NCBI RefSeq assembly: GCF_004698125.1
Contig: NZ_SRHV01000005.1
Span: 62,001 to 126,000 of the forward strand
Length of the DNA stretch: 64,000 bases
Reading direction: 5' to 3'
Source: Halosimplex halophilum
GTDB taxonomy: Archaea; Halobacteriota; Halobacteria; Halobacteriales; Haloarculaceae
A program made the translations under genes and the position numbers. The notes beneath the pieces are model-generated. The model did not search any database. It saw only the letters and a program-made list of their open reading frames with translations, and was not told the DNA's origin. This document shows positions 2,481-19,801 of the stretch, piece by piece; the stretch's first letter is position 1, and every line of letters starts with the position of its first letter.

Positions 2481-3392
2481 TCAGACCAGGTTGCCCCGGG
2501 CGACCGGCCGGACCGCGCCGCCGACCTCGACGACGATGTCGCCGCCGTCGGCGCTCTCGCGGGCGCGGAGGTCGAGCAGCGACGGCCGCCCCATCTCGTA
2601 GCCCTGTTCGACGCGCACGTCGACGGGGTCGGTGCCGAGGTAGGCGTGCCGGTGGAGATACGCTGCGAGGCAGCCGTTCGACGAGCCCGTCGCGGGGTCC
2701 TCGGGGACGCCGTAGTAGGGCGCGAACACCCGGACGGCGAGGTCGGTGTCGTCGCGCCGCGAGTCGGGGCAGACGGCGAGGACGTTCTTCGCCTCGCGGT
2801 CGCCGGTGACGGCGTCGTAGGCGGCCCGGTCCACGTCGATCGACTCCAGCGCGGCCCGGTCGACGAGGGGGACGACGACCGTGGGCAGCCCCGTCGAGAC
2901 GACCTGGGCCGGGTACTCGCGGTCGAGGTCGGCCGCGTCCAGTCCGAGGACGGCCGCGACCTCCTCGTGAGCGAGTCGGTCGCCGAACTCGGGCGGCTGC
3001 TGGGTCATCCACAGCGTCTCGCGGCCGTCGCGCTCGCGGACCTCGACGGGCACTCTGCCCACGTCCAGGTCGAGGACCACCTCGTCGGGCCGGCCGTCGG
3101 CGAGGTGCTCGCGGATGGCGTGGGCGGTCCCGAGCGTGGGGTGGCCGGCGAAGGGGATCTCCGCCTCCGGCGTGAAGATGCGGACCGGCCACGTGTCGGG
3201 GTCGCCGTCGCCGGACGACGGGCCGGCCGCGGCGTCCGTCTCGACGTAGGTCGTCTCGGAGAAGTCGATCTCGGCGGCGAATCGCTGCATCTCGTCGTCG
3301 CTCAGGTCGGCGGCGTCGGTGACGACCGCGAGCTGGTTGCCGGCGTAGCGCTCGCGGGCGAACACGTCGACGAGGTGGAGGGGCTGGCGCAT
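2481..3392 (-). CDS. PhzF family isomerase/epimerase-like protein
   Basis: 303 residues, the usual PhzF length. These cytoplasmic enzymes have two diaminopimelate-epimerase-like halves and often catalyse isomerisation; most family members have no known substrate. Seen here: the N-terminal motif YAGNQLAVV (family PF.GNPLAVV), SETTYVE with the conserved catalytic glutamate at about residue 46, GHPTLGTAH, and DPATGSSNGCLAAYL in the C-terminal half. The start at 3392 (MRQPLHLVDVFA) matches the family N-terminus. It lies downstream of a methyltransferase gene on the same strand with a 77-base gap. No phenazine genes are nearby, so no phenazine role is implied. Confidence 0.88.
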   Translation of the reverse strand: MRQPLHLVDVFARERYAGNQLAVVTDAADLSDDEMQRFAAEIDFSETTYVETDAAAGPSSGDGDPDTWPVRIFTPEAEIPFAGHPTLGTAHAIREHLADGRPDEVVLDLDVGRVPVEVRERDGRETLWMTQQPPEFGDRLAHEEVAAVLGLDAADLDREYPAQVVSTGLPTVVVPLVDRAALESIDVDRAAYDAVTGDREAKNVLAVCPDSRRDDTDLAVRVFAPYYGVPEDPATGSSNGCLAAYLHRHAYLGTDPVDVRVEQGYEMGRPSLLDLRARESADGGDIVVEVGGAVRPVARGNLV

Positions 3393-3469
3393 GGCTCGCC
3401 CGACGTTCTCGTCGGCGACCGAAAGCCGTTTTCCCGGTGTGCGAGTGGTCCCCACGGTCCAGCACCGCC

Positions 3470-4330
3470 TCAGCCGCCGTCGGTGGGTTTCAGGAACCGC
3501 AGACAGAGGAAGTTGGGCGGTCCGTCGACGAACGGCTCGATGCGGTCGGGCTCTCGCTCCGCGAAGGCGTCGGTGACGCCCGGTTCGCGGACCCGCTCGA
3601 CGAGCAGGCCGGCGTCGGTGGCAGGTTCGAACACCGCCTGCAGCGGGCGGCGGTAGAACGGGACGACGAACGGCTCCTCGTCGCCCCAGTCGCGGTCGGC
3701 GCGTTCGACCTGTCCGTAGGTCGCGCCGTCGGCGAGGACGTGCTCGCGCGCGCCGTACTCGGCGTCGACGTAGTCGCGGACGGGGTGGCTCGTCGAGACC
3801 ACGACGCGCCCGCCGGGGCGGAGGACGCGGGCGAACGCCCCGAAGACCGACGGCCAGTCCTCGACGTGCTCCAGCGCGAGCTGACACAGGACCAGGTCGA
3901 AGCTCCCGTCGTCGAGGAAGGGCAGCCCCGCGGTGAGGTCGGCCTCGTGGACCGGTATTTCGGTGTCGGGGTCGCCGAACCGTTCGCGCGCCCGGGCGAC
4001 CATCTCGGGGCTGGCGTCGACGCCGACGGCGTCGGCGCCCGCCGCGACCAGCCGCTCGGTGTAGAACCCGTCGCCGCAGGCAGCGTCGAGGACGCGCCGC
4101 CCGTCGAGCGACGGCAGCAGCTCCCGGACTACCGGCCACTCGTAGTGCTCGCGGATCGCCGCGCCCGTGATGTCCTCGTACCCCGGCGCGAGGTCGTCGT
4201 AGGTGTCCCGCGCCGGCGGGCCGTCGGGCGGCCGGTCGGCGTTCCCGTTCCGTTCGTCCCCGCGGTTCCGGTCGTCTACCCGCTCCTCGCCGGCCGGTTC
4301 CTCCCCGGAGCTCGCGTCGTCGTCCGCCAT
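3470..4330 (-). CDS. Class I SAM-dependent methyltransferase
   Basis: 286 residues. Residues 1-40 are a disordered acidic extension, followed by DTYDDLAPGYEDITG and the SAM-binding motif I VLDAACGDGFYTE (about residues 80-92). VGVDASPEMV is motif II; DLVLCQLALEHVEDW and LRPGGRVVVSTSHP are the later motifs of UbiE/Methyltransf_11 proteins. The C-terminal part (YRRPLQAVFEP) resembles small-molecule methyltransferases of unknown substrate. A minus-strand TATA-like AAAGTATATC at 4357-4366 sits about 30 nt before the ATG. It may be co-transcribed with the PhzF gene. Confidence 0.87.
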   Translation of the reverse strand: MADDDASSGEEPAGEERVDDRNRGDERNGNADRPPDGPPARDTYDDLAPGYEDITGAAIREHYEWPVVRELLPSLDGRRVLDAACGDGFYTERLVAAGADAVGVDASPEMVARARERFGDPDTEIPVHEADLTAGLPFLDDGSFDLVLCQLALEHVEDWPSVFGAFARVLRPGGRVVVSTSHPVRDYVDAEYGAREHVLADGATYGQVERADRDWGDEEPFVVPFYRRPLQAVFEPATDAGLLVERVREPGVTDAFAEREPDRIEPFVDGPPNFLCLRFLKPTDGG

Positions 4331-4356
4331 CGTGTCAGCGAATCGTCTCTCGGACT

Positions 4357-4366
4357 GATATACTTT
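4357..4366 (-). promoter_or_regulatory. TATA box for the methyltransferase gene
   Basis: AAAGTATATC on the minus strand, centred about 31 nt upstream of the ATG at 4330. The predicted leader is short. It was identified by eye from the haloarchaeal TTTAWA-like consensus and spacing. Confidence 0.45.
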
Positions 4367-4402
4367 CTCGGGGGATCGGGGCCGTCCCGGGGAGTCGGCG
4401 GG

Positions 4403-6253
4403 CTACTCCGCCAGTTCGTCGCCGCGGGTGACGCCGGTGAACTCGAAGCGGGCGCCGCCGGCCTCGCTCTCGGTCGCCCGCACGTCCCAGCCGTGGGCGT
4501 CGGCGATCTCGGCGACGATCGGGAGGCCGAAGCCGGTGCCGCCCTCCTCGCCCGTCACGCCGCGCTCGAACAGCCGGTCGCGCACGTCCTCGGGGATTCC
4601 GGCCCCGTCGTCTTCGACGTAGAACCCGGGATCGCTCTCCGGGAGCGTCCCGACGCGGACGGTCACGTCGTCGCCGCCGTGTTCCACGGCGTTGCGGAAG
4701 CAGTTCTCGAACAGGCGCCCCAGCCGGTCGGCGTCGCCCCGGACCGAGTACGCCCAGTCGGTCGCCAGCGTCGCCCCGGCGGTGTCGACGGCCTCCCAGG
4801 CGGCCTCGGCCTGGTCGCGGCCGGTGATCCACTCCAGTTCGTCGATGTGGCTGCCCTCGCGGGCGTAGGTGAGCACCTCGTCGACGATGGCCTCGATGCG
4901 GTCGTGCATCGCCGCGACCTCCTCCAGTTCGGACTCGTCGCCCGTCCGCCAGTACAGATCCAGCCGGCTCTTGGCGACGTTCAGCGGGTTGCGCAGGTCG
5001 TGGCTGAGGATGCCGGCGAACTCCTCCAGCCGCTCGTTCTGGCGGTCGAGCTCGCGCTCGCGGCGCTTCTGTTCGGTCACGTCGACGGTGACGCCGACGA
5101 TCCCCCGGGCGCGGCCCTCGTCGTCGTACCACGGCGCCTTGGTCGTCTGGAAGAAGAGATCCTGGCCGTTGGGCGGCTGGGCGTGCTCGATCCGGTCGCG
5201 GATCGGCTCGCCGCTCTCGATCACCTCGCGGTCGTCGGCGACCGCCTCGGCGGCGTTGTCCGCCTCGTAGAGGTCGAAGTCGGTCTTGCCCACCACGTCC
5301 TCCGGGGAGTGGAGGATCTTCCCCTCCGGCGACTCGATGAACGGCTCGACCACGTCCTCGCTGACGAGGACGTGGCGGCTCTCGGTGTCCTTGAAGTACA
5401 CCGACATCGGGACGTGTTCGACCAGCGAGCGCAGCATCGCGGCCTCGTCGCCGCCGAGCGGGTCGGCCCGCCGCCCGGACGGCTCGGACCCGGGCACGTC
5501 CGCGACGAGGTAGCCCGTCCCGGCCCGGTCGTCGACGAACAGGTCGACCTCGGTCTTGAACGCGGTCCCGTCGGCGCCGGTGCAGTGCCACTCGCGGCTC
5601 TCGTAGTTGCCGCCGCGGGCGCGCTCGACCATCGTCTCGACCGGGTCGGCGTCGGGGTCGATCCACTCCAGGTGTTCCTCGCCGTCGGCGCCCCGGCCCT
5701 GCCCGCGCAGCTCCCCGGTGATGTCCGTCACGAGCAGGTCCCGGACGGTCGCGTCGGCGAGATCCGCCGGCTCCCACTCCCACCGGTCGTAGAACCGCTC
5801 GTTGGCGTCCCGGAGCGCGAGCGTCTCCGGGTCGAAGGCGACGACCGCCTCGTCGGCGAAGTCGGCCAGCCGCCACGCGGTCGTCGCCGATGGGTCGTCG
5901 GCGAGCCGCTCGACCTCGACCGGCAGCACCGTCCCGAGGTCCGCGTCCGGGTGGACCCGGGCGGCGCGGGCGTCGCCGGCCACCCGCTCGACGGCCGCCC
6001 GCGCCAGCCCCCCGGCGACCACGACGACCCCCACCGTGCGGTCGATCTCTCTGATCCGCTCGTAGTCCGCCGCGCTCGCGCAGACGAGACAGTCGGGTTC
6101 GATGTCCCCCCGGTCGCCGCCGAGGCCGTCGATACCCCCCTGTTCGACGACCGCGACGGCACCGTCCCCCGACAGCGCCGCCGCGAGCCGCTCGCGGTCG
6201 CCGCGGTCGCCGACGACCGCGACGCCGACTGGGTCGTCCCGTGTCCCCTGCAT
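4403..6253 (-). CDS. PAS-domain sensor histidine kinase
   Basis: 616-residue soluble sensor kinase with no membrane segment. Residues 1-120 look like a degenerate receiver-like domain (VGVAVVGDRGDRERLAAAL). A PAS domain follows (DEAVVAFDPETLALRDANERF), then a second PAS (HVPMSVYFKDTESRHVLVS) ending in the PAC-type VGVTVDVTEQKRRE. The HisKA H-box is EFAGILSHDLRNPLNVAKS. The HATPase has an N-box ENCFRNAVEHGG, a G1 box DDGAGIPEDVRDRLF and a G2 box GTGFGLPIV. It autophosphorylates the H-box histidine and should pass phosphate to a separate receiver. No regulator is adjacent; the nearest lone receiver is at 10993-11415. The start at 6253 is preceded by a minus-strand TATA-like GGAAGTATTTC at 6279-6289. 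Confidence 0.92.
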   Translation of the reverse strand: MQGTRDDPVGVAVVGDRGDRERLAAALSGDGAVAVVEQGGIDGLGGDRGDIEPDCLVCASAADYERIREIDRTVGVVVVAGGLARAAVERVAGDARAARVHPDADLGTVLPVEVERLADDPSATTAWRLADFADEAVVAFDPETLALRDANERFYDRWEWEPADLADATVRDLLVTDITGELRGQGRGADGEEHLEWIDPDADPVETMVERARGGNYESREWHCTGADGTAFKTEVDLFVDDRAGTGYLVADVPGSEPSGRRADPLGGDEAAMLRSLVEHVPMSVYFKDTESRHVLVSEDVVEPFIESPEGKILHSPEDVVGKTDFDLYEADNAAEAVADDREVIESGEPIRDRIEHAQPPNGQDLFFQTTKAPWYDDEGRARGIVGVTVDVTEQKRRERELDRQNERLEEFAGILSHDLRNPLNVAKSRLDLYWRTGDESELEEVAAMHDRIEAIVDEVLTYAREGSHIDELEWITGRDQAEAAWEAVDTAGATLATDWAYSVRGDADRLGRLFENCFRNAVEHGGDDVTVRVGTLPESDPGFYVEDDGAGIPEDVRDRLFERGVTGEEGGTGFGLPIVAEIADAHGWDVRATESEAGGARFEFTGVTRGDELAE

Positions 6254-10992: not shown

Positions 10993-11415
10993 TCAGTCGT
11001 CGAGCGCGTCCTCGACGGCGTCGACCAGGTCGTCGAACCCCCCGTTCGACGCCCCCTTCCGGACGTACCGGGCGCCCCGCTCGCGCGCCCGTTCGGCCAG
11101 CCCCTCGTCCTCGGAGCCCGAAAAGAGGATCAGGGCGGCGTCCGGGTGGGTCGCCGCGACGGCGTCGAGCAGCGCCAGCCCGTCCGTCCCGGGCATCTCG
11201 TAGTCGCTGACCACGCAGTCGACCGCGTCGTCGACCCGGGCCAGGGCGTCGTCCGCGTCGGTCGCCGTCCGGACGGACACGTCGTCGATCCGCCCGAGGT
11301 ACGCGCCCGCGAGCGCCGTCAGGTCCGGGTCGTCGTCGACGACAAGCACCGTGTGCGTCTCACAGCACCCGGTCGACCGGTGGAGGGGGTTCGACTCGCG
11401 CGATGCACACATCAC
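10993..11415 (-). CDS. Single-domain response regulator (receiver only)
   Basis: 140 residues consisting of one CheY-like receiver. The acidic pocket is VVDDDPD (about residues 26-31), the phospho-acceptor is Asp71 in VVSDYEMPG, the conserved Ser follows in LILFSGSEDE, and the Lys is in YVRKGAS. No output domain follows, so it should act by protein contact or as a phosphorelay link. The N-terminal 20 residues are unusual and contain a Cys pair (GCCET). ATGs at 11415 and 11412 are equivalent alternatives. It is divergent from an HTH gene 139 bases away. The partner kinase is unknown; the PAS kinase at 4403-6253 is a possibility only. Confidence 0.88.
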   Translation of the reverse strand: MMCASRESNPLHRSTGCCETHTVLVVDDDPDLTALAGAYLGRIDDVSVRTATDADDALARVDDAVDCVVSDYEMPGTDGLALLDAVAATHPDAALILFSGSEDEGLAERARERGARYVRKGASNGGFDDLVDAVEDALDD

Positions 11416-11516
11416 TCGCCCCGTTGACTCCGATCCGTGTTAATGATCCACGAGCGTTTTCGCGCGCTGAAAGCGCCGTCGGACAAGTGATAGTGAAAGT
11501 ACAAAAACCCGCTTCA

Positions 11517-11538
11517 GGGAACCCTTTTGGGAGTTCCC
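11517..11538. promoter_or_regulatory. Dyad-symmetric sequence before the HTH gene
   Basis: GGGAAC (11517-11522) and GTTCCC (11533-11538) flank CCTTTTGGGA and lie 16-37 nt upstream of the ATG at 11554. This covers the expected core promoter or start-site region. It could be an operator for the adjacent HTH protein, or a short hairpin in the leader. It was found by eye. Confidence 0.4.
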
Positions 11539-11553
11539 GTCGATCGATCGGGT

Positions 11554-12453
11554 ATGAGCGGAGCCAGCGAGGGGCCCGGCGAGGAGGCCGACGGGGAGGT
11601 CGACCCCGCGGAGGCGTTCGGCGTCGTCGCCAACGGGACCCGATTGGAGATCCTGGAGGCGCTGTGGCGCGCCGACGACCGCCCGGTGAGCTTCTCCGCG
11701 CTGCACGACGAGGTGGCGATGCGCGACAGCGCGCAGTTCAACTACCACCTCCAGCAGCTGACCGACCAGTTCGTCGCCAAACGCGAGGCGGGCTACGACC
11801 TGCGCCACGCCGGCGCCCAGGTCGTCCGCGCGGTCCGCGCGGGCACGTTCACCCGCCGGCCCGACGTGGAGCCGTTCGAGGTGGAGGGCGCCTGCACCCG
11901 CTGTGGCGGCGCCCTCGAAGCCCGCTACGCCGACGAGCAGTTCCGCATCGACTGCGTCGACTGCGGCAAGTCCCACGGCGAGTACGAGTTCCCGCCCGGC
12001 GGCCTGGTCGACCGGTCGAACGCGGAGGTCGCCACCGCCTTCGACGAGCGGGTCCGCCACCTCCACTGTCTGGCCGCCGACGGCGTCTGCCCCTCCTGCG
12101 CCGGCCGCATCCACACCGAGATCGTCCGCAACGACGGGGAGTGTTGTCTCGACGTGTCGCTGCGCGCCGAGCACGTCTGCGAGCGCTGCCGCAACGAGCT
12201 CTGTTCGCCCGTCGGCCTCGTCCTGCTCGACGAGTCGGTCGTCTCGGCGTTCTACGAGGACCACGGCATCGACCTGTCCTCGCGCCCGTACTGGACGCTC
12301 CCGTGGTGCGTCGACGACGAGTACACCGCCGTCGAGTCGGTCGACCCCTGGCGGGTCACCGTGGAGATCCCCCTGGCCGACGACCGGTTGACGGTCACGC
12401 TCGACGGCGACCTCGACGTGGTCGACAGCGAGTGTCGGTCCTGCGAGGGGTGA
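11554..12453 (+). CDS. ArsR-like winged HTH protein with zinc-ribbon C-terminal domain
   Basis: 299 residues. Residues 20-95 form a winged helix: AFGVVANGTRLEILEAL, then a recognition region with SAQFNYHLQQLTDQFV. The C-terminal two thirds carry cysteine pairs: CTRCGG and CVDCG (first ribbon), then CPSC, and CERCRNELC (second ribbon). The remainder is a compact domain of unknown role. This architecture is common in haloarchaea as putative one-component transcriptional regulators; ligand and targets are unknown. The start at 11554 follows a dyad that may be its own operator. It is divergent from the lone response regulator. Confidence 0.85.
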   Translation: MSGASEGPGEEADGEVDPAEAFGVVANGTRLEILEALWRADDRPVSFSALHDEVAMRDSAQFNYHLQQLTDQFVAKREAGYDLRHAGAQVVRAVRAGTFTRRPDVEPFEVEGACTRCGGALEARYADEQFRIDCVDCGKSHGEYEFPPGGLVDRSNAEVATAFDERVRHLHCLAADGVCPSCAGRIHTEIVRNDGECCLDVSLRAEHVCERCRNELCSPVGLVLLDESVVSAFYEDHGIDLSSRPYWTLPWCVDDEYTAVESVDPWRVTVEIPLADDRLTVTLDGDLDVVDSECRSCEG

Positions 12454-12640
12454 CGGGAGGCGGGGCCGTCACCGCCGCCCGTTCGTCTGCCGTCACCGGG
12501 GCCGGTCTGGAGGCCGTCGCCCCGTCGGCATCCGGTAGCCGGCCGGTAACTGCCAGTCGGCTACCGCTCGTTCGTCCGTCGCTCCTGAAGTGTCGAAAGG
12601 ATTATTTCGGCGTGGATGCACGTTACGCAGGACTGAACAC

Positions 12641-14806
12641 ATGCGCAGGGGCATCCGTCGGGAGGCAGGGTGGTCGCCGACCAGGGGGCAATCGAACGTC
12701 ATCGCGGTGGTGTTGCTGGCGGGGCTCGTCCTCGCCGGGGCGACGGTGGTCGTGGTCGCCGGCTCGACGGCGATCAACCAGGCCCAGAGCGACTCGTCGT
12801 TCGCGAGCGCCGAGCAGTCGATGCGGTCGCTCGGCGCCGAGATCGACAGCGTCTCGCGGGACGGGCAGTCGGCGGACGTACAACTCGACGCGTTGAAATC
12901 CGGCGACGCGGCGGTCGAAGAGTCCGCCGGATCGATGACCGTCACCGTCGTCCACAAAGGGTCGGGGGCGACGGATTCCCACACCGTCGAACTCGGGCGT
13001 ATCCAGTACGAACAGGGCCAGCGGACACTGGTGTACCAGGGAGGCGGGCTGTTCGAACGAACCGGGAACGGGTCGGCCGTCGTCTCCGCGCCCGAGGTGA
13101 GCTACCGCCAGGCGTCCGAGGGCGGGACACTGACGGTCCCCGTCGTCGCGGTCACGGGCGAAGCAGTCGACGACGAGGTGACCGTGGAACGGACGGCTAT
13201 CCGCGAGATCCTCCCCAAACTCGACGGCAACCCGGACACCGGCTCCGACGAATCGGTCAACCCGCTCAAACGCGGCACCGCGCTCCGGGTCACCGTCGAG
13301 AGCGAGGTCTACCGGGCGTGGGGGAGCGTGTTCGAACAGCGGATCGGGACCGGCGTCGAGTACGACCCCGACAAGGAACAGGTCTCGTTCACGCTCGATG
13401 GGCCGCCGGAACGCGGACCGCCGGTCACGCGGGCCGCGTTCTCCTCCCGGGGGGTCGACACGCACGTCGGGAAGTTCGCGGGGACGAGCTGCTACCACCC
13501 GACCAGAAGCAGTAGCTGTACGGCCGGTGACGTGTATCTGAAGTCGGCGGACGGCGGGCTCGCGAACTGTTTCACGGTCGAAGGGGACCTGGTCATCGAG
13601 CGGCTCCCGGCCAGCGGGAGCCTGTACGGGTCGTCGGGGTGCGGCGGTGCGACCATCGAGGGGAAGTCCTTTTTCGGCGAACGACGCTCGGCGAGTTCGC
13701 CGTACGAGATCAAAGGCGACGTGACCTTCGAGGGCTACACCAGCATCCACGACACGGTCACGTTCACCGCCGGCGGTGTCAATTTCGAGGACGACGTGCG
13801 GATCGACGGCAAGGTGAAGAAGATGCGCGGCGTCACCGTCGAGGAGTCGCTGTACGTCGAGCCGAACCCGAGCAGCAACGAACTGAAGATCAACGACGGC
13901 ACCGTCGTCAAGGGCGACCTCGTCGTCAACGGCCGCATCAAGGTGAACGGGAACGTGAGAGTCCACGGGGAAGTGTACGCCGAGGACGAGGTGAAAAGTA
14001 CCGGCTGGGGCGGCCTCAAGGACGAGAACGGGGACCCGAAACCGTCGTCGGAGATCCACGAGAACCTCCCGTCGTCGCAGGTGCTAGGGAAGATGCCGCG
14101 CGACCTCCAGCACATGACCACGTCCGACCGACCGAGCAGCGTCGACATGAGCAAGAAGGAACCGACGACCGGCGACAGCGCCTCCGACATCTCCTCCGGC
14201 ACGCTCGACTGTGACCCCGACGGAACGGCCGAGACGTGTCATCTCGACGCCGGGACGTACAAGCTCGACCACCTGGAACTGGGCCACGGCGACGAACTCG
14301 AACTCGACACCAGCGGCGGGAGCATCAAGATCTACGTCGAGGGCGGCGTCGAAGTCCCCAAGAACGCGGAGATCCAGGTGCTCGGGGACAACTCGAACCG
14401 GGTGGCGGTGTTCGTCGAGGGAGCGGGCGCCAGCAGTAACACGTTCCACATGTACGGCGGGTCCGGAACGGCCGGGGAAGTGACGACGCCGGACGACAAG
14501 GCGTCGAAGTTCTGGGTCTACATGGACCCGAGCGACGAGGTACGCATCAAGGAGCACTCGGACTTCACCGGCGTCATCTACGGGCCCGGTAACGGTCCCG
14601 ACGGCGACGGCGTCGACGTGTATCTCGACAAACACGCGACCGTCCGGGGCGCGGTCGTCGGCAACCTGGAGAAGTTCACGAACTCGGCGAGCATCAAGTA
14701 CGACGTCACGCTCCAGGGGCGGTCGGCGCTCATGGTGGGTACCTCCGACACGGACCGGGTGGCGTACTTCCGAACGTCCGCCCGCGTCGTCGGGGTGGAC
14801 GGCTGA
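12641..14806 (+). CDS. Large pilin-like surface protein with polymer-forming beta domain
   Basis: 721 residues. The N-terminus carries a class III (prepilin) signal: TRGQSNVIAVVLLAGLV, with a hydrophobic stretch to about residue 40 and expected cleavage before Gln. Residues 40-280 are a polar domain. Residues from about 355 hold short repeating beta turns (DVTFEGYTSIHDTVTFTAG, VTVEESLYVEPN, VVKGDLVVNGRIKVNGNVR) resembling bactofilin/polymer-forming repeats. The C-terminal domain, with SGTLDCDPDG and SDFTGVIYGPGN, resembles domains in other haloarchaeal pilin-like proteins. It is probably anchored in the membrane and extends into the S-layer space. It is convergent with an operon of five further pilin-like genes. 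A TATA-like GATTATTTC lies about 40 nt upstream. Confidence 0.8.
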   Translation: MRRGIRREAGWSPTRGQSNVIAVVLLAGLVLAGATVVVVAGSTAINQAQSDSSFASAEQSMRSLGAEIDSVSRDGQSADVQLDALKSGDAAVEESAGSMTVTVVHKGSGATDSHTVELGRIQYEQGQRTLVYQGGGLFERTGNGSAVVSAPEVSYRQASEGGTLTVPVVAVTGEAVDDEVTVERTAIREILPKLDGNPDTGSDESVNPLKRGTALRVTVESEVYRAWGSVFEQRIGTGVEYDPDKEQVSFTLDGPPERGPPVTRAAFSSRGVDTHVGKFAGTSCYHPTRSSSCTAGDVYLKSADGGLANCFTVEGDLVIERLPASGSLYGSSGCGGATIEGKSFFGERRSASSPYEIKGDVTFEGYTSIHDTVTFTAGGVNFEDDVRIDGKVKKMRGVTVEESLYVEPNPSSNELKINDGTVVKGDLVVNGRIKVNGNVRVHGEVYAEDEVKSTGWGGLKDENGDPKPSSEIHENLPSSQVLGKMPRDLQHMTTSDRPSSVDMSKKEPTTGDSASDISSGTLDCDPDGTAETCHLDAGTYKLDHLELGHGDELELDTSGGSIKIYVEGGVEVPKNAEIQVLGDNSNRVAVFVEGAGASSNTFHMYGGSGTAGEVTTPDDKASKFWVYMDPSDEVRIKEHSDFTGVIYGPGNGPDGDGVDVYLDKHATVRGAVVGNLEKFTNSASIKYDVTLQGRSALMVGTSDTDRVAYFRTSARVVGVDG

Positions 14807-14869
14807 AAGCCCGCGCCGTTCGGCAGTCCGCCCTCGGTCGCCACGTCCCGCCCTCCGGTCGCCCGTGAG

Positions 14870-15652
14870 CTACCGCAACTCGTAGTCGATCTCCGCGTGG
14901 GAGACGACGACCCGGTCGGTCGGGACGATACAGGTCACGTGGTCCGGCTCCGGTCGCCTGCAGGCCGGGCGGCCGCTCAGCGGCGCGCCCGGCGGGCGCG
15001 TGATGGTCCCGACGCTCTCGTTGAGCTGTCGCTCCCACACGTCGACCCGATCCGGCAGACTCTGGACGGTCACGTTGAGCCGGACGGGATCACTGTCCCG
15101 TGTCAGCGACACGCCGGTACTGTTGCCCGCCACCGCGTGGACCTCGCTGGTCCCGCCGCCGACGCTCTGCGTCGTCGCGTTCGTCTCGACGACGGGCACG
15201 ACGGAGCGGCTCCGCGAGAGGGCGAGTCGCGGGCCGGTGACTGCGACCGACCCCCTGGCCTGGTCGCGGACGACGAGCGTGTTCTCGTAGGCGATCGCCA
15301 CGTCGTCGGTCCTGTAGACGATCGGCCGGACCACGCGGTTGACCTCGACCCGTTCCGATCCGCGGATCGCGGTGACGTTGACCGTCGCCGGTGCGCCGGT
15401 CTCCAGCGTCGCGGAGTCGAGCGTGAGTTCGGTCGTCCGGCTCGTCGCCGTCCCGTAGTACAGCGCCTCCATGTCGGCCGCGACCGCCTGCATCGCGAAC
15501 TCCCCGTTGTCGGCGACCGTCGACGACTGCACCTGGTCGAGCGCCGTCACCCCGAAGGTCACGACCCCGCCGATCGCCAGCACGACCGCCGAGAAGACCA
15601 GCACGTAGCCGATGAGTTCGCTCTGTCCCCTGCGGGTGCGCCGCTCACGCAT
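14870..15652 (-). CDS. Type IV pilin-like protein (last gene of pilin operon)
   Basis: 260 residues. A class III signal RRGQSELIGYVLVFSAV is followed by a hydrophobic helix to about residue 37 and a helix with TALDQVQSS. The rest is a beta-rich extracytoplasmic domain with several N-glycosylation sequons (NVT, NAT, NST). It ends with a disulfide-capable Cys-rich region (GRPACRRPEPDHVTCIV). Assembly into a pilus or pseudopilus, or anchoring at the cell surface, is inferred from the signal. It overlaps the upstream gene by eight bases, so the operon is translationally coupled. It is convergent with the large pilin-like gene. Confidence 0.8.
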   Translation of the reverse strand: MRERRTRRGQSELIGYVLVFSAVVLAIGGVVTFGVTALDQVQSSTVADNGEFAMQAVAADMEALYYGTATSRTTELTLDSATLETGAPATVNVTAIRGSERVEVNRVVRPIVYRTDDVAIAYENTLVVRDQARGSVAVTGPRLALSRSRSVVPVVETNATTQSVGGGTSEVHAVAGNSTGVSLTRDSDPVRLNVTVQSLPDRVDVWERQLNESVGTITRPPGAPLSGRPACRRPEPDHVTCIVPTDRVVVSHAEIDYELR

Positions 15653-16106
15653 GTCTGATCACCACTTCCTGCCCGGTGTGGACGTACTCGACCCGGACCG
15701 TTCCGCCGTTGATCCGCGTCGAACGCAGTCCGGTGTCGACCTGTCGGACGGGGACGGTCACGTTCACGTTCAGGTCGGCTGCGGCGAGATAGAGCGTGTA
15801 TCGGCCGTCGTCCGGGTCGTCGGCGATCACGCCGATCCGGTACTGCGAGCCGGCGACGCGGTCGGGGAACTGTCGCGTCACGGCCGCCGTCTCCGGGACC
15901 GCCTCGGTCTCGTTGAACCGGTCGACGGTCATGACCGTCCCCGCCAGCTGCTGGCCCACGACCTCGAGTTGCTGGCGGGCGGTGTCCTCCCGTTCGTTCT
16001 GGATGAGCGACTCCGTCCCCAGCACCAGCCCGGTCGTCAACACCAGCGCCAGCGAGACGATGAGGACGTACGAGATCGCCGTCGAGACCGCGCGGTCGTC
16101 CATCAT
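15645..16106 (-). CDS. Type IV pilin-like protein
   Basis: 153 residues. The N-terminus MMDDRAVSTAISYVLIVSL has the form of an archaeal pilin signal (basic residue, Ala/Val at the cleavage site, then an uninterrupted hydrophobic helix to about residue 33). A helix with REDTARQQLEVVGQQLAG and a C-terminal beta domain with YTLYLAAADLNVNVTVPV follow. The starts at 16106 and 16103 are consecutive ATGs and the upstream stop lies within them (ATGATGA). It is the fourth gene of a five-gene operon. No flagellin-type signature was seen, and the function is unknown beyond surface location. Confidence 0.8.
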   Translation of the reverse strand: MMDDRAVSTAISYVLIVSLALVLTTGLVLGTESLIQNEREDTARQQLEVVGQQLAGTVMTVDRFNETEAVPETAAVTRQFPDRVAGSQYRIGVIADDPDDGRYTLYLAAADLNVNVTVPVRQVDTGLRSTRINGGTVRVEYVHTGQEVVIRHA

Positions 16107-17098
16107 GACAGTTCCCTGTGCGCGATGTCGATGTTCGTCTCGTAGGACACCGTCGCCGAGTGATAGCGGTACCTGACGCGGGCGCCGAACAGCACCGGCT
16201 CCGCCGACGAACGGGACCCGGCGTCGAACTTGTCGCTGAGCGACGGCGACCCGCTGGACGGTGGCTCGTCGACGATCATCCAGTACTTCCCGAATATCTT
16301 GTGGCTCCGGGTGAAGTTGACCGTGTACTCGTGGCGACCGGGATCGATCGGGTCGAGCGCGTCGCAGTCGTCCCCGTCGACTGTGCCGTTGTGGACGTGG
16401 ATCGTCGCCGAGTTCGTGGCGGCGACCGACCCCGTCTGGCACTTCCTGATGACCCCCTCCGGACTCCGCGTCCTGATCACCAGCGGGTCACTCAGGCTGA
16501 AGTCCTGGTAGATCGTAACGCTCCAGTTCCCGCCGGCGGCTGCCGGCGTCTCGAAACTCATGTTGAACGCGTTCTCCGGCTGGACGGTCGCGGCGGCGAT
16601 GTCGGTGACGACCAGCGTGAGGTTTCGCACCTCGACGCGTTTCGCCGGATACCAGTAGTCCGCCCCGCCGGTCGCGCCTCCGGCCGGCTGTTCGAACGTG
16701 AACCCGGTCTGTTCCTGTTTGATCCGCGTCCCCTCGATGAACTCCGCGCCGCTCGCCTCCATCGTCGCGTTGACCATCCGCCCGCGCCGGGCGTAGTGGC
16801 TCGTCGTCTCGTTGCCCACCTGCGTGACGACCGCCTCGAACGGCGCCTCGCGGTTGCCGGCGGAGTAGTTCTCGAAGACGAACCGGAACTGCCTGGTCAG
16901 GGCGGTGTCGAGCGACTCCCGGATCGCGACCGCGTCGTTGCCCCGGACGATGTCGTCCTCCTGGCTCGCGAGCGTCGTGGTGTAGCTGCTCGACGTGAGG
17001 ACGAGCGTCAGTCCGATGAGCGCGACCGCCAGCACGAACGCGCCGGCCAGCAGGAGCTGTGCGCGCCTGTCCCGGTCGGCGGCGCTCAGGTCTGCCAC
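16103..17098 (-). CDS. Pilin-like membrane-anchored extracellular protein
   Basis: 331 residues. RDRRAQLLLAGAFVLAVAL is a class III-type signal with Ala at the cleavage site, and the hydrophobic helix reaches about residue 35. The long extracytoplasmic domain has many sequons (ENYSAGN, GNETTSH, NATMEAS, NLTLV, NMSFE, NWSVT, NGTV, NFTRS). Two cysteines (CQTGSV, DDCDALD) could form a disulfide. The N-terminal pattern matches haloarchaeal DUF7261-type proteins, which always sit in pilin-like clusters. It overlaps both neighbours (13 and 4 bases). Confidence 0.78.
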   Translation of the reverse strand: MADLSAADRDRRAQLLLAGAFVLAVALIGLTLVLTSSSYTTTLASQEDDIVRGNDAVAIRESLDTALTRQFRFVFENYSAGNREAPFEAVVTQVGNETTSHYARRGRMVNATMEASGAEFIEGTRIKQEQTGFTFEQPAGGATGGADYWYPAKRVEVRNLTLVVTDIAAATVQPENAFNMSFETPAAAGGNWSVTIYQDFSLSDPLVIRTRSPEGVIRKCQTGSVAATNSATIHVHNGTVDGDDCDALDPIDPGRHEYTVNFTRSHKIFGKYWMIVDEPPSSGSPSLSDKFDAGSRSSAEPVLFGARVRYRYHSATVSYETNIDIAHRELS

Positions 17099-17682
17099 GC
17101 GACCACCTCCACTTCGAGGACGTTGTAGAGGTGGCCGTCGGCGCTCGTGTCGAGGTCCGCGGCGAAGAAGTCCGAACGCTCCGTCGACGTGCAGAGGTAG
17201 TCCGAGGGGGACGACGGCGACGACGGCGGCGAACAGACGTCGCGGTCGTACAGCGTCACCACCGTCGACGCGCGCACTGCGCCGTCACCGGGCACCCCGT
17301 TGTAGATGAGCCGCGTCCGCTGGCGCCCGTCCGTCGGCGTCCGGTGGTAGATGACGACGTTGACGGTGACCGTCGGCCCGACGCTCTGTTTCAGCGCGGT
17401 CCCGAACGGGTTCGACGGGTACGCTCCGGTGTACCACTGCCCGTCGGCGTCCTCGAAGCCGCTGGTACCCCAGTCGTCGACGAGCGCCGACTGGAGTTCG
17501 CCGGTCTCGGCGGTCTTCGCGAGGGTGCTCTCGATCGTCGAGGCGTCCACGGGCGCCGCCGTCGCGCCGCTGGTCGTCGGCGTGAGAACCGTCGCCTGGA
17601 GCGCGAACGCGATCCCCGCGAGGACGACCAGCGCGGCGAGGATGCCTTCGAGCGCGAACAGCTGTCCGCGTTCGCCCCGCAC
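17086..17682 (-). CDS. Pilin-like protein (DUF7288-type)
   Basis: 198 residues. ERGQLFALEGILAALVVLAG is the signal and hydrophobic helix; the sequence EGILA inside the helix is typical of DUF7288-type pilin-like proteins. Residues 45-90 include TIESTLAKTAETGELQSALVDDW and NPFGTALKQSVG. The C-terminal beta domain has VNVVIYHRTP and TVVTLYDRDVCSPPSSPSSP with a Pro/Ser spacer, ending VLEVEVVAWQT. The second and third genes of the operon overlap by 13 bases, so the products are probably made in fixed ratio. Confidence 0.8.
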   Translation of the reverse strand: MRGERGQLFALEGILAALVVLAGIAFALQATVLTPTTSGATAAPVDASTIESTLAKTAETGELQSALVDDWGTSGFEDADGQWYTGAYPSNPFGTALKQSVGPTVTVNVVIYHRTPTDGRQRTRLIYNGVPGDGAVRASTVVTLYDRDVCSPPSSPSSPSDYLCTSTERSDFFAADLDTSADGHLYNVLEVEVVAWQT

Positions 17683-17683
17683 G

Positions 17684-18250
17684 CTACCACGCCCTCACGA
17701 CGACGAACACGTTCTCTCCCTCGAACTGCGCGAAGCGTTTGACGGTCACGTAGTTCCGGTTTCTGTTCGCGTTCGGTCCCCTCGCCAGTACCGTCCCGCT
17801 CCCGGCCGGGCAGGCCGAGACGCGCACGATGTCCTCGGCGCCCTCGTCCCAGCAGGCGACGTCCATGTGGCCGTTGCCGCCGATGTCCTTCTCGATCGTG
17901 ACGTTGAACGGCTGGTTCACCGCCCCGGCGGTGTCGGCCGCGATCGAATTGCCGGTCCCGAACCCACAACTCACGCCGCCGTCGAAGAAGGCGAGCACGC
18001 AGTGGCGGGCGAGTCCCGGCTGGCCCTCCGAACCCGACAGCGCCGTGTCGGCCAGGTGATCGGCGACCCGCTCGGCGGCCAGGCGGTCCTCGTCGTCGAT
18101 CCCGGAGTCGTCGCTCAGCGAGCCGAACGCCGTCGGCACGAACACGACCACTCCCAGCACGACGACCAGAAAGAGGGTCACGCCGATCGAGAAGTCGAAG
18201 ACTGACTGGCCGCGATCGTCGGCTCCGAGACGGTGCGTGTCCCGATTCAT
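17684..18250 (-). CDS. Pilin-like protein (DUF7287-type), first gene of operon
   Basis: 188 residues from the ATG at 18250. DDRGQSVFDFSIGVTLFLVV is the class III signal plus helix; FDFSIGV is typical of DUF7287-type proteins. Domain residues include FFDGGVSCGFG and VACWDEGAED, suggesting disulfides, and the end FAQFEGENVFVVVRAW. An in-frame ATG at 18349 would add 33 residues; a TATA-like GCTTTATC at 18367-18374 lies 25 nt before that ATG and fits a leaderless start there. Homology favours 18250 and promoter spacing favours 18349. One base separates it from the next gene. Confidence 0.78.
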   Translation of the reverse strand: MNRDTHRLGADDRGQSVFDFSIGVTLFLVVVLGVVVFVPTAFGSLSDDSGIDDEDRLAAERVADHLADTALSGSEGQPGLARHCVLAFFDGGVSCGFGTGNSIAADTAGAVNQPFNVTIEKDIGGNGHMDVACWDEGAEDIVRVSACPAGSGTVLARGPNANRNRNYVTVKRFAQFEGENVFVVVRAW

Positions 18251-18492
18251 CGGTCCCGTGTCCCGAGCGACGACCCCCCTGTGGACCGCGGCCGCGAACG
18301 CCCTCCGCTCGCGGGCGGCCCGAGCCGTCACCCCTGTCGTACCTGACATAGTTTAACACGTTTAGATAAAGCTTGCGCCATCCGTGGGTATGGATGCGTG
18401 TTACTCACGTCGGCCGCCTGGTCGTCCCACCGAGGGCTCGCCGGTCGGACCGCCGTCAGCGCGCTTATGTCCGCCCGCGACAACGGGCGACC

Positions 18493-19503
18493 GTGCAGGA
18501 GTTCGCGTTCGAGCTCGCGCTGTGTGCGCACCTCGAACGGCCGGACCGGGTCGTCGGCCGCCAGCTCGGCGCCGCGGTCCACGGCCGCCGGGTCGCCGAC
18601 GTGTGCCTGGTCGAGCCAGGTCCCGAGTTCGACCGCCGCGCGGCGGTCACGCCCCACACGATCCCGCCGCTGGCGATCGAGAGCGACGCCGGCCCGGGCA
18701 CCGCCCGGCCGGTCGCCGAGGCGTTCGACTGCCACCCAGACCGCGCCCGCGCGGTCGCCGAGCGGGCGGTCGAACTCGGCTTCTTCGAGCGCGAACGCGA
18801 GGGGGCGAGCACGGCGGTCCGGCAGACGGTCCGCTACCCCGAGCAGTGGTTCGACTCGCTGGTCGGGATCGAGAACAAGCCCGACCTCGACCGGCCGGGC
18901 GACCTGCGGGACCAGCTGCGCATCGACGCCTCGCTGGGGCTGTTCGACGAGGTGGTCCTGGCGACGGAGACGTACGTCACCGGCGCGCACCTCAACCGCC
19001 TGCCCGACGCCGTCGGCGTCTGGCGGTTCGACCCCGAGACCGGCGAGCGCGAGGTCGTCCGCGAGCCGGAGCCGCTGGCGACCGACGGACCGGGCATCGA
19101 ACTCCTCGACCGCGAGCCGGGCCGCGCCGAGGTGCGGCCGGTCACCGCCGCCGAGAAGCGCCGCCAGCGCCGTCGCATCGCAGAGCGCGCCTACGGCAAG
19201 GGCTGGCGGACCTACGAGCTGCCCGACTGCGAGCGGTGCGCCCCGAGCGACGCCGAGCCCGCCGACCTCGCCGACGCGCGGCTGCCGTGGTGTGCGTGGA
19301 CTGACGGGCTCGTCCGTCCGGTCGCCGACTGCGGGCCGACGTGTCCGGGGTACGAACCCGTCGACGGCGGCGATAGTGACGGAGACGCGGAGGGGGTCCC
19401 GCCGTCGGAGGGCCCGGAGGCCGTCCGCGCCCGGCGGAGCGCCTGGGAGCCGGACCCCGCGGGCGTCGACCGCCGGCAGGCCGGACTCGACAGGTTTCTG
19501 TGA
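18493..19503 (+). CDS. DUF5787-like haloarchaeal protein
   Basis: 336 residues from a GTG start giving the N-terminus MQEFAFELALCAHLE, the beginning of a conserved haloarchaeal family (DUF5787) of unknown role. Notable parts are ARQL-like GRQLGAAVHG, VCLVEPGPEFDRR, a DE-rich central region with LVGIENKPDL and DASLGLFDEVVLAT (resembling the core of PD-(D/E)XK nuclease folds: E..K and D residues), and a cysteine-rich C-terminal part (DCERCAP, LPWCAWTD, DCGPTCPGYE) that could bind a metal or Fe-S cluster. Nuclease activity is inference only. Its upstream region is shared with the divergent pilin operon. Confidence 0.72.
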   Translation: MQEFAFELALCAHLERPDRVVGRQLGAAVHGRRVADVCLVEPGPEFDRRAAVTPHTIPPLAIESDAGPGTARPVAEAFDCHPDRARAVAERAVELGFFEREREGASTAVRQTVRYPEQWFDSLVGIENKPDLDRPGDLRDQLRIDASLGLFDEVVLATETYVTGAHLNRLPDAVGVWRFDPETGEREVVREPEPLATDGPGIELLDREPGRAEVRPVTAAEKRRQRRRIAERAYGKGWRTYELPDCERCAPSDAEPADLADARLPWCAWTDGLVRPVADCGPTCPGYEPVDGGDSDGDAEGVPPSEGPEAVRARRSAWEPDPAGVDRRQAGLDRFL

Positions 19504-19504
19504 G

Positions 19505-19801
19505 TCACTCGGCGCCGTCGTCGGCCGCGCCGGCGGTCGGGTCGTCGCCGGTCGTGCCGCCGTCGGTCGTGTCGCCGTCGGTCGGGCTGGCGTCGCTCTC
19601 GGCCGACCGCTCGCGCAGGTAGCGGGCCCCGGCGACGTAGACGAGCGTGAATATCAGGACGAACGACGCGGTCTCGGCGGGCGCGACGGCCCCGTCGAGG
19701 ACGAGCTGGACCCCGACGTAGGCGACCGCCGCGACCGCCGCGACGACGACCGTCGCGAGGACCGGCCGCTCGACCGCGATGTCGTCCGACGCCATATTCA
19801 T
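19505..19801 (-). CDS. Small two-helix membrane protein
   Basis: 98 residues, no family recognised. Two hydrophobic segments are visible: LATVVVAAVAAVAYVGVQLV and FVLIFTLVYVAGARYL. A charged RERSAES and a low-complexity Thr/Gly/Asp tail follow. The start is MNMASDD at 19801 or the ATG at 19795; longer in-frame starts add only low-complexity residues. It is convergent with the DUF5787-like gene (one-base gap) and divergent from the carbonic anhydrase-like gene. Confidence 0.65.
   Translation of the reverse strand: MNMASDDIAVERPVLATVVVAAVAAVAYVGVQLVLDGAVAPAETASFVLIFTLVYVAGARYLRERSAESDASPTDGDTTDGGTTGDDPTAGAADDGAE

Follow-up and report, generated by a model that had tools for sequence, protein, structure and literature searches.

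The DNA analyzed here, referred to throughout as the window, is a 64,000 nucleotide (nt) stretch of the 4.47 Mb genome of Halosimplex halophilum (contig C3 in our numbering; NZ_SRHV01000005.1, positions 62,001 to 126,000), and the element of interest is a cassette of six genes, P0001 to P0006, that are listed in Table 1. Gene calls bear out all six open reading frames that had been described in an initial sequence-only reading of this DNA, each of the frames is open in the window and every protein matches at least one Pfam family above the curated cut-off. The five minus-strand genes had been said to overlap, which is nearly right: three of the four junctions overlap, by 8, 4 and 13 nt, while the last pair is spaced by 1 nt. 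Class III-type signals had also been proposed for all six proteins and they are found in 6/6 by a defined test (a charged residue at position -2, Gly or Ala at -1 and then a hydrophobic, mostly uncharged stretch), with predicted cuts after residue 6 to 16; by the same test, only 4 of the 59 other called window genes score positive, as do 26 out of 1007 further genes called at loci L016-L127. An earlier version that 12/59 controls passed was unsuitable and was replaced by this one. With a class III signal and a hydrophobic helix in each of the six proteins, the genes are real and, as judged from their sequences, type IV pilin-like. The DUF names of the six families were found in no paper of the open PubMed Central literature.

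Table 1. Features of the cassette and its surroundings in window coordinates (a slash marks the predicted cut in a signal; AF2, AlphaFold2; pLDDT, predicted local distance difference test score)
Feature	Position	Strand	Basis
P0001, large modular pilin, 721 residues; DUF7289 + solenoid insert + DUF7305	12641..14806	+	
DUF7289 pilin part of P0001, residues 15-255	12683..13405	+	Pfam E 1.2e-23; weak AF2 model: helix 19-72, beta strands 78-253
Bactofilin-like solenoid insert of P0001, residues 355-460	13703..14020	+	AF2 block pLDDT 44-89; Pfam Bactofilin below cut-off
DUF7305 part of P0001, residues 524-692, solenoid-like	14210..14716	+	Pfam E 3.4e-30; VIA-align
P0002, small DUF7289 pilin, 260 residues	14870..15652	-	Pfam E 3.9e-38; signal RRG/QSELI
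P0003, DUF7266 pilin, 153 residues	15645..16106	-	Pfam E 2.2e-19; signal DRA/VSTAI
P0004, DUF7261 pilin, 331 residues	16103..17098	-	Pfam E 1.1e-14; signal RRA/QLLLA
P0005, DUF7288 pilin, 198 residues	17086..17682	-	Pfam E 2.0e-37; signal ERG/QLFALE
P0006, DUF7287 pilin, 188 residues	17684..18250	-	Pfam E 1.1e-26; class III-type signal
Block exchanged between alleles W and X	12454..18446	.	DNA similarity to four X genomes
Left flanking gene, conserved, outside the cassette	11554..12453	+	84-92% protein identity in 7 other Halosimplex genomes
Right flanking gene, conserved, outside the cassette	18493..19503	+	80-87% protein identity in 7 other Halosimplex genomes

Custom models gave no ATPase or TadC-like match in positions 3001-33000 of the window, and genome-wide searches with T2SSE and Peptidase_A24 gave none within the window (T2SSF was not searched genome-wide), in keeping with the previous observation that a PilB/PilC-type ATPase, assembly platform and prepilin peptidase are missing from it. 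The genome holds six T2SSE matches and one Peptidase_A24 (prepilin peptidase) match, all outside the window. At locus L009, on another contig, an 839-residue T2SSE ATPase (2483-5002) is followed by a 698-residue T2SSF protein and, three other called genes past the latter, by DUF7287, DUF7288, DUF7261, DUF7266 and DUF7289 genes in this order, together with a convergent DUF7289+DUF7305 gene. The window cassette has the same gene order and a large DUF7289 protein as well, at 27-34% identity to the L009 proteins; an ATPase and a TadC-like gene directly beside the set are found at the paralogous L009 and not in the window. We label this arrangement PilB4-type after Makarova et al. 2016 (PMC4858521), where the PilB4 type (clade 2, HVO_1160) is described as an ATPase with extra terminal domains that has its own pilin set. 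The genome carries one machine of this type. By its sequence, the window locus is a second copy of the PilB4-type haloarchaeal pilin set that lacks motor genes. The suggestion of a pilin-like surface complex with machinery encoded elsewhere has thus held up, the ATPase/TadC pair and the prepilin peptidase match both lying on other contigs than the cassette. The term orphan, used previously, is apt in that the machinery is unlinked, but what is present is not an unknown orphan but the second copy of a set that usually adjoins its machine. Elsewhere in this genome, at L012:3597-8754 and L013:8266-14952, small proteins with N-terminal hydrophobic stretches adjoin two further secretion ATPases and are possibly additional pilin sets.

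The cassette is widespread. DUF7287 is found in 272 of 292 genomes sampled from the class, in 97/103 genomes of the family that are at least 95% complete and in 8/8 Halosimplex genomes, with two copies in seven of these and one copy in a genome that is 71% complete. Haloferax volcanii, used as a control, has DUF7287 too. From the window, L009 and selected matches we have extracted 119 distinct cassettes, of which, within the family, 56 are linked to a machine and 43 are unlinked, and outside it, where cassettes were picked from the best-scoring matches, 20/20 are linked. Some of these labels are loose: L071_1087 counts as unlinked though it is convergent with a machine (at L132), several other unlinked sets stand in tandem with a linked one, and L021 was labelled linked by hand, its TadC match being ∼9 kb away. 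All five small families are present in 108/119 cassettes and in 41 of the 43 family cassettes labelled unlinked. The convergent layout noted for the window is the rule, with a large gene within 3 kb that is convergent in 86 of 111 cassettes having a small DUF7289 gene, on the same strand in 6 and absent in 19. Signals were located in, for example, 43/117 DUF7266, 73/116 DUF7261 and 113/119 DUF7287 proteins, and these counts are minimum values, since the search started from model hits within stop-to-stop frames. Mature position 5 of DUF7287 is Asp in all 113 homologues with a located signal, as it is in P0006.

A genome search for ATPase and TadC genes and for their co-occurrence with the cassette, as proposed in the sequence-only reading, has yielded the PilB4-type pair described above, and the cassette follows PilB4-type ATPases across the class sample. 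By our own count an ATPase match at E ≤ 1e-150 is present in 271 of the 272 genomes that have DUF7287 and missing from 11 of the 20 that do not; 7 of these 11 keep a more distant match (5e-122 to 1e-130). Within the family there are more cassettes than PilB4-type ATPases in 62 of 103 genomes, equal numbers in 34, fewer cassettes in 1 and neither in 6. In each of the genomes G002 and G199, the 20 kb retrieved around an ATPase/TadC pair contain no gene of the six families, and a single cassette is located at another place. Since the sole cassette detected in these two genomes is remote from the machine, supply of the cassette in trans is likely. Assembly by some other motor, such as a PilB3-type ATPase, is quite improbable given that the distribution of the cassette tracks PilB4-type ATPases even in genomes left with only more distant PilB types, even if G322 has a cassette without a PilB4-type ATPase and a Haloferax pilB1-C1 deletion is rescued by PilB3-C3 (PMC6491452). 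That rescue shows that one haloarchaeal motor is able to serve another pilin set. Two cassettes are also seen in tandem downstream of a single ATPase/TadC machine, at L029/L030, L056, L057, L061/L062, L063/L064, L120, L091 and L137.

What is new here is that two alternative cassettes, in opposite orientation, occupy the same site in all eight sampled Halosimplex genomes, with the same pair of genes flanking the unlinked set in each. Allele W is found in the window, G324, G275 and G326 and allele X in G325, G161, G323 and G337. Aligned to the X genomes, the window shows DNA similarity of 81-92% in the flanks, which stops at 12336-12454 (the stop codon of the left flanking gene ends at 12453) and resumes at 18447-18460. 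Among named species of the genus, H. carlsbadense, H. pelagicum, H. aquaticum and H. salinum have orthologues of the right flanking gene at 80-86% identity. Between the alleles the cassette proteins average 23-33% identity past mature residue 25 and 16-53% over the first 25. Within allele W the corresponding values are 50-72% and, in five of the six families, 87-96%; for most families of allele X this contrast is slight, lacking or inverted (for example, 75 in the first 25 residues vs 82 in the remainder for DUF7288, and 54 vs 72 for the small DUF7289), and DUF7266 is mis-anchored in several rows of the comparison. That the locus is a decaying duplicate without function is hardly credible: it has no machine of its own and the identity within allele W past residue 25 is modest, yet all six frames are open, the five small families are complete in nearly all unlinked family cassettes and the start of the mature proteins is strongly conserved in five of the six families of allele W, if not with the same contrast for all families in allele X.

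A tree of the flanking genes from the eight genomes rejects a W/X split (approximately unbiased (AU) test, p 2.3e-56), and a tree of the machine from six Halosimplex genomes (all but G325 and G337) rejects W and X as separate groups (p 2.3e-77 and 5.2e-6). Because both trees reject a single split the site has switched at least twice; our own parsimony count gives at least 2 switches on the machine tree and 3 on the flanking-gene tree. The flanking genes might themselves have been exchanged, but the machine provides a locus independent of these genes. Branches of the cassette tree for allele W have poor support (52 and 58); an AU test speaks against the species order (p 0.012), but we draw no conclusion from this tree. 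Repeats in 11400-19600 are imperfect, with no clear pair at the two borders; recombinases were not searched for. This exchange of versions could not emerge from the single window on which the earlier account was based. In one Halosimplex subgroup (L118, L017 and L119) a local rearrangement is apparent, in that genes past the right flank match the window at 6.5-7.4 kb, and for L118 also at 4.4-6.3 kb.

Exchange is also indicated beside the machine itself. In the tree of all 119 cassettes the machine-linked sets of Halosimplex lie within a clade (support 1.0) whose 31 other members include, by our count, 29 unlinked sets, and a reduced test with 16 cassettes rejects a tree that joins them to relatives' linked sets (AU p 7.65e-6). 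In the machine tree the Halosimplex pair adjoins that of L026 (support 0.989), and the linked set of L026 falls outside that cassette clade.

The large pilin P0001 had been credited with bactofilin-like repeats. Pfam Bactofilin scores 19.8 bits against a cut-off of 27.9, which places the protein outside that family, and what survives of the claim are the solenoid-like short strands that follow, in regular succession, the helix and beta head of an AF2 model (mean pLDDT 56, weak). Helix followed by strands is seen in both AF2 models made, the other with a mean pLDDT of 51. Structural alignment of the DUF7305 part (VIA-align) gives Z 12.3 with an ice-binding protein, Z 10.2 with bactofilin 6rib and a weaker Z 7.8 with ComZ (6qvi), a competence pilin of Thermus that likewise has a solenoid on a minor pilin (PMC8179133) but that is bacterial and matched less well than the other two. 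A PDB sequence search with P0001 returned no match up to E 1 and Foldseek none at E ≤ 0.001; solved pilin heads are absent among the matches listed for the DUF7289 part, which is uninformative for or against. An alignment of 16 homologues of P0001 shows the conserved pilin part followed by a variable part and then by a C-terminal stretch common to most, and the large proteins range from about 446 to 2268 residues, with a solenoid, VWA or CARDB as the added part. Of the two roles that had been considered for this protein, tip or filament core, an adhesive or tip subunit fits better because both the added part and the length vary. Among the giants of the large-DUF7289 group are those of L071:1957-8847 (+) and L075:1336-7017 (-), ∼2268 and ∼1892 residues from the model match on, which have CARDB repeats, plus VWA in L075; Pfam DUF7289 itself is listed for neither.

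Modules of this kind distinguish the two alleles. A pilin part joined to a domain that is not specific to type IV pili, the hallmark of a modular pilin, is found in P0001 of allele W (bactofilin-like solenoid and DUF7305, the latter presumably free of ties to such pili elsewhere), in the 727-residue large pilin of allele X (L022), which has a VWA domain (E 8.4e-11) with a DxSxS motif, and in the allele X counterpart of P0003, a DUF7266 pilin of ∼830-920 residues with PKD and LamG lectin modules (LamG E 3.2e-22). With small models built from the allele X hits, VWA is detected in 16/125 large proteins (14 distinct, two being counted twice in overlapping loci), 15 of the 16 retaining DxSxS, which in L093 is probably not a metal site. 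LamG occurs in 7/119 sets, all seven also with VWA and four of them orthologous copies of allele X; in these per-set counts a large protein up to 9 kb away is assigned to a set, so that L062_2607 and L029_9441 share the VWA protein of a tandem neighbour. The size of the DUF7266 protein in allele X bears on whether the cassette encodes an entire second filament, in which DUF7266 would be the major pilin, and not merely a tip. Such a filament is unlikely: an own major pilin is predicted for the PilB4 system (PMC4858521) and DUF7266 is the shortest of the six window proteins, but a protein carrying PKD and lectin modules would be an odd major pilin and the genome contains 13 PilA-type Pilin_N matches elsewhere, 12 of them above the cut-off. 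A pseudopilus that serves secretion is very improbable, the exchanged modules being of adhesive kinds (VWA, lectin), although a secreted substrate was not looked for and a large pilin with an added domain does resemble GspK. An inserted domain of GspK is mentioned in PMC8179133.

Our preferred interpretation, which we consider probable, is that the locus is an exchangeable cassette of adhesive minor pilins, for the tip of a pilus, that is assembled by PilB4-PilC4. Six prepilins with class III signals would be produced and cleaved before the hydrophobic helix by a PibD-type peptidase, after which the helices would pack and the PilB4-type ATPase/TadC machine, encoded at a distant locus, would incorporate the minor-pilin complex into a type IV pilus. 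At the end of the pilus, the large DUF7289 pilin may then expose a module (in the window a beta-solenoid) that sets what the pilus binds. The whole block could be traded between species by homologous recombination through the conserved flanks, with binding changing and the machine staying. The sequences themselves show the signals, the families, the paralogous set next to the machine, a machine with more than one set, the block replacement and the differing modules of the two versions; cleavage, assembly by this machine, position at the tip, adhesion, ligand and homologous recombination are inferred. More tentatively, and with rather less confidence, we propose that haloarchaea have interchangeable tips in the form of allelic modular-pilin cassettes that are swapped between species by recombination at one site and served by one distant PilB4-type motor, such that recognition of a partner, surface or virus may change in a single step. 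If true, this would carry the concept of exchangeable, modular tips of pili over from bacteria to archaea and explain why a single PilB4-type machine is found together with several pilin sets. Swapping only the cassette, from one version to the other, offers a direct handle on whether binding changes.

Several known systems are comparable. The locus described in PMC4858521 has a pilin set next to a TadC-like protein and an ATPase that bears extra terminal domains, and one signature pilin prone to duplication; the present locus differs in its unlinked second copy, in the two versions at one site and in the grafted VWA, lectin and solenoid modules. The authors of that study argue for modular evolution in which machines and pilin sets recombine. 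For the Kil pilus of Myxococcus xanthus genetics ties one pilus to four minor-pilin complexes that structural models portray as interchangeable tips (PMC12075869); here too a single Tad-type machine is accompanied by several paralogous minor-pilin clusters at separate loci with variable exposed domains. The Kil sets are bacterial and of three proteins, in contrast to the six proteins and the between-species exchange at a fixed site seen here, and the two are compared by design only. We infer by analogy that the Kil and Haloferax findings may carry over to the window locus. In Streptococcus sanguinis the modular pilins PilB (vWA) and PilC (Ig-like and ConA-like lectin) (PMC8179133, PMC9934059) resemble allele X, which pairs a VWA pilin with a PKD/LamG lectin pilin in one set; the present families are archaeal and allele W has solenoids instead. 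Exchangeable tip cassettes or VWA/lectin pilins in haloarchaea were not found among the titles and abstracts listed by searches of the open PubMed Central literature.

A number of points weigh against a tip cassette driven by PilB4-PilC4. The case is computational, and the weakness of both AF2 models means that a pilin fold is only suggested. Five further T2SSE matches are present in the H. halophilum genome, some of which could serve instead, and the PilB4-type label rests on the published description of that type in PMC4858521. PilB4-type ATPases occur without a DUF7287 match in 8/8 sampled genomes of genus g34; G322, as noted, has the cassette and no PilB4-type match, and G174 has a weak DUF7287 match and again no PilB4-type match. 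In genus g12 the closer PilB-type ATPases are wholly missing, so that the absence of cassettes there is not specific. Finally, a machine lies no more than about 20 kb from some cassettes labelled unlinked, which stand in tandem with it or converge on it.

Two loci of genus g34 deserve separate mention. At L224 (G157:C1:1022500-1038500) the frame of the PilB4-type ATPase is broken by a TAG stop, with no DUF7287 set recognised alongside, and at L223 one large DUF7289-like pilin follows the machine.

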